Source: an uncultured Candidatus Poseidoniales archaeon
Lineage (GTDB): Archaea; Thermoplasmatota; Poseidoniia; Poseidoniales; Poseidoniaceae
Assembly (NCBI GenBank): GCA_905182125.1
Contig: CAJJAV010000003.1
Location: 1-64,000, forward strand
Length of the DNA stretch: 64,000 nt
Direction: 5' to 3'
Position 1 is the stretch's first letter; each line of letters begins with the position of its first letter. The translations under genes were made by a program, and so were the position numbers. Below the pieces are notes generated by a model that saw only the letters and a list, made by a program, of their open reading frames with translations, was not told the origin of the DNA and did not search any database. Shown here one piece after another: positions 37,209 to 39,873 of this stretch.

Positions 37209-38423
37209 TTAGTCGTCTTTGAGAACGTAAATCGTACCCGCCCAACTGAAGATAAGCAGTTCGTCATCAAGGCCATGCCCGAAACCAACAATCATGGTGC
37301 CTGTTTGGGCAATGATCTCGCTGGACCAGTTCCCGAGGGTCCCAGTGATGAGCCAGACCGTTCCCGTGCAGAAATCCCCGTACAGGTAACCGTCACGAAG
37401 TGGATCTGGACCCCAATCCATCCACTCGCCTCCAGAAATCGAGCAATTCCCTCCTTCATGCGGGTAGACTTCAATCGGGTCTGTGTAATTGGAATCTGAG
37501 TTTACCGGTGACGAGCCACATGCTGCAGATTCGTTAAATTCATGGAATCCTTCCCGCATTGACCAGCCCAGATTGTGAGGTTCATGCAGTGGAACATAGT
37601 TAATCTCCTCAAAACATTTCTGTCCGACATCAGCAATCCATAAGCCACCTGAAGGATCGACATCGAAGCGCCAAGGGTTTCTTAGCCCATGGTGCAGGAT
37701 GTATGGGTTTCTCGAGGGATCATCCAACACGGGGCTCACATCGCCATTTTTGTACTCAACAAGGTGAATTGCACCCAGAGGCGAGGAGAGGTTTTGACTG
37801 GTCTGATTTGGATCGTTTGATCCACCCCCATCGCCTAAACCCCAGAGGTATTGATTGTTGCCAATGCCCAGAAGATGGCCGCCGTTGTGATTACGGTAGG
37901 GCTGTGGAACCTCGCGCAAAGGTCGAATCGTGCTGACGTTTATTTCTCCATTCTCGACCACAGCATCTGCTAAAACTAGTTTCGACTGATTCGGACCCTC
38001 ACAGATGCCGTCCTCCACATAGGAGAGAAGCACTTTTTGGGAGGTGTTGAAGTCTTCAGCAAAAACGAAACTCAACAACCCTTGTTCAAGATGACAAAGA
38101 CTCACCAAGTCAGTCATGTTGACGACAATCCGTAGGCTTTCACCATCCCATGCAGAAATGACTCCGCTGAGATCTGCGATCCAAATTTCTGATTCTTGTG
38201 GATGATGAAGGCCGACGACCGGAGTTACGAAACCCGTGAGGTATTCTTCGCAAACCAGGCCATCTTTAAGGTTGGAATTACAAGGGATTTCCATTTTTTC
38301 TTGCCATTCAAAACCAGGGGTTTTGACTTCTCTTTCCTCTGCAACACAACCTGAGAGGGCGGGCAGCAAAAGAACGAGGACTCCTAGGAAAGCGAGGTAT
38401 TTCAAAAAAATCCTCTCACTCAA
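37209..38423 (-). CDS. PQQ-type glucose/sorbosone dehydrogenase-like lipoprotein
   Basis: A 404-residue exported lipoprotein with lipobox LPALSGC, Cys 26. The rest is a six-bladed beta-propeller of the soluble glucose dehydrogenase/HHIP class: NHNGGHLLGIGNNQYLWGLGDGG, HHGLRNPWRFDVDPSGGLWIADVGQ, FEEINYV and DGYLYGDFCTG. Family members oxidise sugars with PQQ or have lost cofactor binding. No PQQ biosynthesis gene is in the window. The frame starts with TTG overlapping the upstream stop (TTGA); no ATG is available before the signal peptide. Confidence 0.8.
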   Translation of the reverse strand: MSERIFLKYLAFLGVLVLLLPALSGCVAEEREVKTPGFEWQEKMEIPCNSNLKDGLVCEEYLTGFVTPVVGLHHPQESEIWIADLSGVISAWDGESLRIVVNMTDLVSLCHLEQGLLSFVFAEDFNTSQKVLLSYVEDGICEGPNQSKLVLADAVVENGEINVSTIRPLREVPQPYRNHNGGHLLGIGNNQYLWGLGDGGGSNDPNQTSQNLSSPLGAIHLVEYKNGDVSPVLDDPSRNPYILHHGLRNPWRFDVDPSGGLWIADVGQKCFEEINYVPLHEPHNLGWSMREGFHEFNESAACGSSPVNSDSNYTDPIEVYPHEGGNCSISGGEWMDWGPDPLRDGYLYGDFCTGTVWLITGTLGNWSSEIIAQTGTMIVGFGHGLDDELLIFSWAGTIYVLKDD

Positions 38424-39508
38424 TCTAGGTTGTACTTGTCGTTGAAGTAAGCCTTGATACCGGGAACATCTTCAATGAGACTGCCATACGAGCCAAGGTG
38501 ATTTGTCGTGTTGGTAATGGTCATTCCAGGTGTGCTCATGACGTTATCGAAGATGTCGAGCCCCGAACTTTCATTGTTCATTTGAGCAAATGCATTTTGC
38601 AGGGCAGTCACATTGTCCGCATCCATGAATTCAGGGTTGAACATCACTGGGTGGCTTGGCGCTTTTCCAAATGTAGGAAGCGCATAGTAGTCGTCGACGG
38701 AGGTGAATTCACCCTTGAAGCACCATGCTTCATTGTCACTTGATTTTTCATTGCCGCAGTAAGAGGGGACCGTTGGGTCTTTTGCGAAGGCAATGTCACC
38801 AACGCCTTCTGCGAGGCAACGAAGTGAACCTTTGTACTTGTAGTAGGTTGTACCGCTTGCAGGAATGCTCGAGTCTTCAGAGAAATGGTTGGTCACAGTG
38901 TCTTCGAGGGATTCAATTTCATTGGGATCTCCAACGACTTCGATGTATCCGTTTCCAATGAGGTAACCCATGGGAAGAAGCATACCAGCGCTACCGAGTG
39001 CGGCTGTATGACACGACGTTTTTCCAGCCATCAATTCAAATGGATCCGTCGAGTTGTCTTCATCCTGTGCTGCAAGGGCCATATCGGAATCTTTGTGAAC
39101 CCAAGCGAGGGCGTTGTAGAAAGGACGGCCGTCCGCTTTTTGTTCAGCAGCGAGTACTTCCAGACCATAGATTTGCCAGCTGAGCCAAGCAGCCCCACCG
39201 TCAAGGAAACCGACGTCAGCATGGCCAAAGCGAAGAGCTTCAATGATTGCTGAAGGGCTGGAAACTGGATAAATTTCAACCTCTTTGCCGAGGATTTCAG
39301 AAAGGCGATCTGCCAGTTGTTGTGGGTTTTCATCTGCGTTCTGGTATTCTTCCTTGGTTTCGAAGGCAATGGTGAGGCAGTTGTCTTTGTCATCACACTT
39401 ATCGAAAACGGCAGGGTTCGAAAGACACCCCGACAATCCTGCTGTTGAAATACAAAATACGATTAGGAAACTTTTGACAAAATTACTGAGCATAGGGTTC
39501 ACCTTCAT
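38420..39508 (-). CDS. PhnD-like ABC substrate-binding lipoprotein
   Basis: A 362-residue lipoprotein with lipobox TAGLSGC, Cys 28. It has the phosphonate/phosphite-binding (PhnD) fold with NPQQLADRLSEILGKEVEIYPVSSPSAIIEALRFGHADVGFLDGGAAWLS and a Ser/Thr-rich ligand loop (GKTSCHTAALGSAGMLLP). The last part is typical too (HPVMFNPEFMDADNVTALQNAFAQM). No PhnC or PhnE gene adjoins it, so it is an orphan binding protein or works with a transporter elsewhere. It is coupled to the PQQ-type gene. Confidence 0.82.
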   Translation of the reverse strand: MKVNPMLSNFVKSFLIVFCISTAGLSGCLSNPAVFDKCDDKDNCLTIAFETKEEYQNADENPQQLADRLSEILGKEVEIYPVSSPSAIIEALRFGHADVGFLDGGAAWLSWQIYGLEVLAAEQKADGRPFYNALAWVHKDSDMALAAQDEDNSTDPFELMAGKTSCHTAALGSAGMLLPMGYLIGNGYIEVVGDPNEIESLEDTVTNHFSEDSSIPASGTTYYKYKGSLRCLAEGVGDIAFAKDPTVPSYCGNEKSSDNEAWCFKGEFTSVDDYYALPTFGKAPSHPVMFNPEFMDADNVTALQNAFAQMNNESSGLDIFDNVMSTPGMTITNTTNHLGSYGSLIEDVPGIKAYFNDKYNLD

Positions 39509-39536: not shown

Positions 39537-39554
39537 GTTTAGGGAGCCCTAAAC
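39537..39554. promoter_or_regulatory. 8-base palindrome upstream of the PhnD-like gene
   Basis: GTTTAGGGAGCCCTAAAC is a perfect 8-base inverted repeat with a 2-base centre, 29 bases upstream of the ATG at 39508. On the minus strand a TATA-like CTTTAGATA directly follows it. It could be a repressor site at the BRE/TATA, or a hairpin ending the tRNA-Val transcript coming from the same strand. Confidence 0.5.
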
Positions 39555-39611: not shown

Positions 39612-39800
39612 TGGGCTCGGCCGGAATTGAACCGGCATCAATGAACAAACCAAACCGAGCAGTGGTGTTCATGACTGGAGCAATTCCGCTCTTGAGGATG
39701 ATTGGTGGGCTCGGCCGGAATTGAACCGGCATCAATGAACAAACCAAACCGAGCAGTGGTGTTCATGACTGGAGCAATTCCGCCTCTTGAGGATGATTGG
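39612..39800 (-). repeat. Two tandem repeat units carrying the 3' end of tRNA-Val
   Basis: Units at 39612-39705 (94 bases) and 39706-39800 (95 bases) are identical except for one inserted base. Each has 25 bases equal to the tRNA-Val 3' end (T-stem, T-loop, 3' acceptor strand and discriminator) plus a 69-70 base spacer. The spacer holds a 6-base inverted repeat (ATGAAC...GTTCAT). The full tRNA-Val follows at 39801. The short minus-strand reading frame crossing them is a by-product. Integration scars or local tandem duplication are both possible. Confidence 0.9.
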
Positions 39801-39873
39801 TGGGCTCGGCCGGAATTGAACCGGCGATCTTCGCCATGTGAAGGCGACATCATAACCCCTAGACCACGAGCCC
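39798..39873 (-). tRNA. tRNA-Val (CAC), CCA encoded
   Basis: On the minus strand the cloverleaf is complete. The acceptor is GGGCTCG/CGAGCCC, the anticodon stem is TCGCC/GGCGA with loop TTCACAT and anticodon CAC, the T-stem is GCCGG/CCGGC with loop TTCAATT, and the discriminator is A followed by CCA (39800-39798). No intron is seen. Its last 25 bases are repeated twice downstream. Confidence 0.95.

Follow-up and report, generated by a model that had tools for sequence, protein, structure and literature searches.

The tRNA-Val(CAC) locus

In the window, the whole 64-kb stretch of DNA that we analysed, an intact tRNA-Val(CAC) gene is followed directly by two tandem units, and the array is bounded distally by a protein-coding gene. 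The features of the locus are:

39801..39873, minus strand: tRNA-Val(CAC), intact; T-arm GCCGGTTCAATTCCGGC, the form seen with arrays
39706..39800, minus strand: unit 1, 95 nt, with a tRNA 3'-end copy at its end; covariance-model match 39706-39785, E 1.3e-20 (unit 1 belongs to the training set of that model)
39713..39785, minus strand: unit 1 hairpin, from covariation in 18 relatives
39785-39760, minus strand: left arm of the unit 1 hairpin, its outer part an inverted T-arm copy
39759-39742, minus strand: loop of the unit 1 hairpin
39741-39713, minus strand: right arm of the unit 1 hairpin, its outer part a T-arm copy
39706..39730, minus strand: tRNA-Val 3'-end copy 1, 25 nt, read from the sequence
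39612..39705, minus strand: unit 2, 94 nt, with a tRNA 3'-end copy at its end; covariance-model match 39612-39691, E 1.3e-18
39619..39691, minus strand: unit 2 hairpin, laid out as in unit 1 (left arm 39691-39666, loop 39665-39648, right arm 39647-39619)
39612..39636, minus strand: tRNA-Val 3'-end copy 2, 25 nt, read from the sequence
38420..39508, minus strand: gene for a periplasmic-binding-type protein, the next one downstream in this orientation, bounding the array distally

The original prediction described two units of 95 and 94 bp, one base apart and each with 25 nt repeated from the tRNA 3' end, and this is borne out by both the sequence and Tandem Repeats Finder. The units differ by a single deleted base, GCCGGTTCAATTCCGGCCGAGCCCA is at once the last 25 nt of tRNA-Val(CAC) and the 3' end of both units, and Tandem Repeats Finder returned a period of 94 (2.3 copies, 99 % match, score 423), the only tandem repeat that it reported within the window. 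An artefact of this one assembly, which had been raised as a possible refutation, is ruled out because like arrays recur in many independently assembled genomes. Contigs of several relatives stop within or just ahead of the tRNA-Val array, and the arrays are a possible reason for assembly breaks behind these tRNAs.

A covarying hairpin in the tRNA-Val units

A nucleotide search of the family found tRNA-Val units (90-96 bp) in two genera, with the copy number varying from 0 to 3 among relatives. When the units are aligned, the spacer and the tRNA-end copy together form an imperfect hairpin consisting of a left arm (GGCCGAATTGAACCAGYCA-YGAACA), a loop of approximately 18 nt and a right arm (TGTTCATTGRCGCCGGTTCAATTCCGGCC) whose outer part corresponds to the copy of the tRNA T-arm. 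The earlier remark that each fragment could still form a T-arm is thus relevant otherwise than proposed, the T-arm copy being the 3' arm of a long hairpin. Over 18 units, 90.7 % of cells were paired, with 27 double-change cells, and 0 of 500 shuffles performed as well. Pairing was lost when the partners were slid against each other, a control biased towards the structure on account of its having been drawn from the same sequences; the double changes are independent of that. In the upper stem alone, double changes occurred in five pairs (e.g. CCAAGAACA/TGTTCTTTGG versus TCATGAACA/TGTTCATTGA).

As a single RNA fold, the window unit scored no better than shuffled sequences (z -0.93); it is therefore the covariation, and not folding energy, that constitutes evidence for the hairpin. 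No close match for the units was found in Rfam. Weak matches, including permuted tmRNA, fell far under the gathering scores and were driven by the T-arm, and a reading of the units as minihelices or tRNA mimics was rejected, as the acceptor 5' strand is not conserved across relatives.

The presence of units is associated with the form of the tRNA itself. Where the tRNA-Val T-arm reads GCCGG or GTCGG, 18 cases have units and 9 do not, compared with 0 of 13 where it reads GAGAG. An incoming end could once have replaced that of tRNA-Val, although shared ancestry fits too. In genomes G161 and G162, the tRNA-end copy within the units has the GTCGG T-arm, matching the local tRNA.

Distribution across tRNAs and genomes

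A covariance model of the Val unit, run on 319 Poseidoniales genomes, revealed related units behind tRNA-Ala(GGC), tRNA-Met and tRNA-Val(TAC), and a pattern search combined with a second model placed tRNA-Ala(GGC) arrays in approximately 25 Poseidoniales genomes from six genera and both families. The window derives from a Poseidoniales archaeon, and the relatives with matching arrays that bear names are Poseidonia and Candidatus Poseidoniaceae genomes. Single units lie behind tRNA-Ala(CGC) in G123, tRNA-Met in G168 and tRNA-Val(TAC) in G171, and the G123 copy mirrors the end of its own tRNA-Ala(CGC) (CTCGCC, not CTCGGC). The layout is the same at all these tRNAs: a linker, an inverted tRNA end, a bulged stem-loop and a direct tRNA end. 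Hence, the 69-70-nt spacer of the window units is a hairpin module that is also present in other genera and behind other tRNAs. Model matches in the sister family were weak, being real for G171 (tRNA-Val(TAC)) and G204 (tRNA-Ala), and 137 evenly sampled genera of the phylum returned no Val-model match at E<=1e-4 outside Poseidoniaceae.

Of 194 distinct tRNA flanks, approximately 30 contain a downstream copy of the 3' end of their own tRNA and none contains an upstream copy, indicating that the copies are not due to chance; many of these flanks were picked for having arrays, and the upstream control is still valid. The idea that every tRNA carries an array was contradicted by the tRNA loci read from the genome of the window (G000), G050 and G060, where arrays occur only at tRNA-Val(CAC) and tRNA-Ala(GGC). 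The units belong to a repeat family that is widespread and apparently undescribed so far, a targeted literature search having found no description of such arrays.

Two further loci carry inverted and direct end copies in the style of the units. In G026 (L047), tRNA-Val(GAC) is followed by GCAAATGGGCTC, an inverted end that includes the start of the insert, and, approximately 100 nt further, by a direct end copy; this unit has diverged beyond the reach of the models. Downstream of tRNA-Arg(TCT) in L202 (c4215-4289), the tRNA end recurs perfectly in inverted orientation (GGTGGGCGCGCC), and a direct repeat of >40 nt that includes the tRNA end lies approximately 155 nt further.

Fixed geometry and own-start complementarity of the tRNA-Ala units

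A single tRNA-Ala array can comprise as many as four complete units that are dissimilar to one another. Each of the 35 unique units (83-102 bp) comprises a linker, an inverted end designated R'' (e.g. ATGGTGGAC), a stem-loop and a direct copy designated R' (CTCGGCACGTCCAC, the tRNA end); R' corresponds to the tRNA 3' end (CGTCCAC or T-arm) in every unit. The stems are unrelated in sequence (CATGAAGAA, ATCAACGAA, ACAAAAG, ACGACCG, AAAACCG, ACGGCTTC and others), yet the geometry GC(C)-stem-loop-stem'-one extrahelical base-GGC is constant, with the extrahelical base on the 3' strand (the L'-R' arm) in approximately 34 of the 35 units. Across the eight stem pairs, 99 % of cells were paired and 52 were double-change cells, with a covariation of 0.648 versus 0.174 for shuffled alignments (0 of 500 shuffles as high).

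These stems contain 412 Watson-Crick pairs and one G.T, compared with 127 G.T in 1493 pairs (8.5 %) in tRNA stems of the same genomes. As RNA helices tolerate G.U, the composition of the stems suggests that the Ala units fold as DNA, with the caveat that the units are related and a recent origin would likewise reduce G.T. This bears on the reading of the units as a structured RNA, co-transcribed with the tRNA and processed to RNAs of approximately 90 nt, with the tRNA 3' end as processing signal, like the rtT repeats behind E. coli tyrT, and selection acting on the RNA fold. The location of the units downstream of the tRNA on its own strand, their conserved and covarying fold and their tRNA-like 3' ends would all agree with such an RNA. 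Against it stand the near absence of G.U from the Ala stems, the shuffle-level RNA fold of the window unit, the lack of a close Rfam match, the absence of arrays from many relatives and the presence of dissimilar units in varied order. We rank a structured RNA next after serial site-specific insertion and consider it rather unlikely.

In the Ala units, R'' is complementary to the tRNA end together with the bases that open the unit itself (GTCCAC|CAT with ATGGTGGAC, GTCCAC|TCTC with GAGAGTGGA and CAC|CATTGAC with GTCAATGGTG). The mean energy of the duplex between R'' and the own start was -19.5 kcal/mol versus -16.6 kcal/mol for permuted starts (0 of 20000 permutations as good), and the own start was a better partner than that of the next unit in 10 of 13 Ala-type comparisons. 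In integron cassettes, complementarity of this kind arises because circularisation of the cassette is what completes the site. Own-start complementarity is an integron-like sign, although a local hairpin of the preceding tRNA end with R'' also fits. R'' of the Val type displays no complementarity to the unit start.

Order, junctions and polarity of the arrays

Dissimilar units are stacked in differing orders, and linker (start) types and stem types combine freely. In G149 (Poseidonia MOX_bin38), the tRNA-Ala gene is separated from its trailer by two different units (102 and 91 bp), whereas in G013 nothing intervenes between the tRNA and the trailer. The junction is flush, and identity over the 100 nt beyond it is 97 %. 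The possibility that G149 and G013 are near-identical strains was rejected, as the flanks show a local match only. Upstream of the tRNA, identity drops to 80 %, and the G013 contig, at 4.3 kb, may be misbinned; hence, we use this pair for the flush junction only and not as a recent event. Decayed or truncated units are mostly distal from the tRNA, with one exception (G143), where the decayed end is in the first unit.

Tandem duplication was the second origin offered by the original prediction. Recombinase-free slippage of a single ancestral hairpin, accompanied by unequal crossing-over and concerted evolution, probably explains the near-identity of the two window units and would suit the identical neighbouring units in G146 and the near-identical neighbours in G038. 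It does not account for the dissimilar units behind tRNA-Ala, the same layout at unrelated tRNAs, the flush junctions or a geometry that is retained although the stem sequence has been replaced. Variable copies among relatives without any integrase had been proposed as a sign of slippage, and such copies are literally what we find, but slippage leaves the heterogeneous units unexplained. As the origin of the arrays as a whole, tandem duplication is improbable.

The other origin offered was serial insertion at the tRNA 3' end by an element whose later loss left scars. Insertion at that end is retained in our interpretation; the scars are not, as the spacer is a conserved covarying hairpin module. 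Ordinary mobile elements such as viruses or satellites, recombined into the tRNA 3' end through double-stranded att sites and then mostly deleted, would leave remnants at loci that are indeed probable integration sites: a 27-nt copy of the tRNA-Ala end contains the terminus of a small ORF in both G053 and G047, with an HNH-type gene present in G053. The difference in the tRNA-Val T-arm between genomes with and without units points the same way, as do the Charybdis elements reported to insert beside tRNA genes of these archaea (PMC12324425). Random decay cannot, however, yield dozens of 83-102 bp remnants that share one bulged-hairpin geometry and own-start complementarity, and the tRNA-Val end is absent from viral contigs, so we regard deleted elements as a distinctly improbable source. 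Rather than random scars or simple products of slippage, the units represent a conserved hairpin module whose copies are linked through tRNA 3' ends.

The sequences in G053 and G047 also merit description in their own right. The small ORF (L133 in G053, L130 in G047) terminates inside the tRNA-Ala end copy just ahead of the tRNA-Ala array, an HNH-nuclease-like ORF lies alongside it in G053, and foreign-looking DNA occupies the tRNA side of the array in both. A mobile element has apparently been inserted between tRNA-Ala and the array in these genomes.

Proposed serial insertion of hairpin mini-cassettes

The explanation that we prefer, at roughly an even chance of being correct, is that the array consists of gene-free hairpin mini-cassettes stacked by serial site-specific recombination at the tRNA 3' end. 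Each unit would comprise a linker, R'' (the inverted partial tRNA 3' end), an L''-loop-L' stem-loop with one extrahelical base and R' (the direct copy). Pairing of R'' with R' and of L'' with L' on a single DNA strand would create an attC-like site, which a recombinase would exchange with the tRNA 3' end, leaving the tRNA intact. Every insertion would shift older units outward, where they would decay, and near-identical neighbours such as the window pair could arise by re-insertion or unequal crossing-over. We infer folding as DNA, insertion next to the tRNA and mobility of the units, and take their structure and distribution as established.

Serial insertion is favoured because the Val hairpin covaries in two genera and the same layout recurs at other tRNAs; because copies often match the local tRNA, the geometry is fixed while the stems vary, and R'' complements its own start in the Ala type; and because the junction is flush, dissimilar units occur in varied order and decay is mostly distal. 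Several observations argue against it, namely, the lack of an integron-type integrase, a circle, an insertion event and a viral or gene-bearing unit among the sequences searched, the extrahelical base on the L'-R' arm, the Val R'' without start complementarity, the G143 polarity exception and the merely local match of G149 and G013.

The candidate enzymes are XerA and the integrase of a transient element. XerA is a candidate because the only tyrosine recombinase match in the genome of the window (82 % complete, 31 contigs) is closest to archaeal XerA; no integron integrase was found in this 82 % complete genome (TIGR02249 score 107.8 versus a cut-off of 265). The XerA-like recombinase occurs in nearly all genomes of the genus, whether arrays are present or not. 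A recombinase could also be supplied in passing, since foreign-looking DNA adjoins the G053 and G047 arrays and Charybdis elements are reported to integrate at tRNAs. Integration of CTX phage by the Xer recombinases of its host proceeds via a folded single strand, a precedent for Xer acting on hairpins. Somewhat more speculatively, the system may be an active one and of a distinct kind, in which host XerA or another enzyme would recombine hairpins folded from single strands into the 3' ends of certain tRNA genes, the tRNA gene being the platform and the units the smallest known cassettes, possibly minimal geneless selfish elements.

An integrase-bearing element between the copies had been suggested as a check in relatives, and none was present in any array read. 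Likewise, viral contigs, in which the original prediction had proposed to look for the units, contain neither the tRNA-Val end nor an Ala array. They returned 15 single 16-mer matches, all without a hairpin, and one Val-motif match that looks like chance; with no arrays or hairpin-bearing matches in the viral contigs, a viral source of the units was rejected. No gene-bearing unit was found, the Ala (83-102 bp) and Val (90-96 bp) units being too short for an ordinary gene, and neither an excised circle nor an insertion event was seen among the arrays.

One integrase-like gene was found in L274 (G013:C40, 1757-2899). Its C-terminus, VPGFEPGFPA, reads as an antisense tRNA T-arm, as expected where the attachment site of an element overlaps its integrase gene, and it is followed by a primase/helicase-like ORF.

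Comparison with known systems

The units resemble integron cassettes and CALINs (clusters of attC sites without an integrase) in that they end in a folded site with R'', L'', L' and R' arms and an extrahelical base. With attC features defined as in PMC2727003, the units possess R and L stems, an unpaired central spacer and a variable terminal loop. They also share with integrons the complementarity of R'' to the unit's own start (Ala type only) and, apparently, growth from one end. In contrast, they lack the GTTRRRY/RYYYAAC boxes, which are replaced by the tRNA 3' end; the tRNA takes the place of attI, no integron integrase is present and the units carry no genes. The extrahelical base lies on the L'-R' arm here and on the R''-L'' arm in integron attC sites (PMC2727003). 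The array thus works partly like a CALIN but falls outside the integrons in its integrase, box sequence, extrahelical base position and gene content. The text of a paper on archaeal integrons (PMC9668308) makes no mention of tRNA or Poseidoniales.

Archaeal mobile elements that integrate conventionally at tRNA genes, through tyrosine recombinases, as Charybdis elements or in tandem, likewise use the tRNA 3' end as their site and leave direct copies flanking the insert, but the inserts described here are approximately 70-85 bp, gene-free and themselves folded sites. In the E. coli tyrT tandem repeats, units of approximately 178 bp with copies of the tRNA 3' end lie behind a tRNA gene and are processed to rtT RNA. 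The units in the window are likewise tandem, directly behind the tRNA and equipped with tRNA 3'-end copies. Compared by description, they are set apart from tyrT/rtT by their conserved bulged hairpin, inverted tRNA end, dissimilar units, occurrence at several tRNA types and presence in an archaeal order.

Casposon targets comprise a repeat at a tRNA 3' end and grow next to the leader. If a casposase or Cas1-type enzyme inserted DNA at the tRNA 3' end and duplicated the target site, a CRISPR-like array would result, and casposons and CRISPR arrays share with the present ones short repeats with inserts, a tRNA 3'-end target and leader-side growth; the resemblance rests on a 14-nt repeat at the tRNA 3' end and on apparently leader-proximal growth. 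Here, however, the inserts carry an inverted repeat-end and a conserved hairpin, not casposon ends, and a search across 63 genomes of this genus detected no Cas1 homologue, compared with 9 positives among 14 control genomes. Short of a mobile casposase, the absence of Cas1 refutes a casposon or CRISPR origin at the genome level, making this by far the least credible of the alternatives.

The site-specific recombination system behind the units, if serial insertion is correct, looks like one not previously described. A very abundant marine archaeal order would then use tRNA genes as docking sites for gene-free hairpin cassettes, following an integron-like logic without an integron integrase and representing a new sort of minimal mobile DNA. 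Folded-strand recombination at an organism's own tRNA ends would further bear on the origin of integrons from Xer recombinases. The covariance model is usable for annotating these loci.

The gene downstream of the array

The product of the gene at 38420-39508 matches both a phosphonate-binding profile (PF12974, E 6.6e-21) and a transferrin profile (PF00405, E 4.1e-20), which together suggest a periplasmic metal- or anion-binding protein. Just upstream of this gene (39508-38420 in its reading direction), a perfect 16-bp palindrome (TTTAGGGAGCCCTAAA) occupies positions 39538-39553 of the window. An imperfect form is retained in relatives (e.g. L017, L020 and L032), and the palindrome resembles the operator of a metal-dependent regulator of the DtxR/MntR type.
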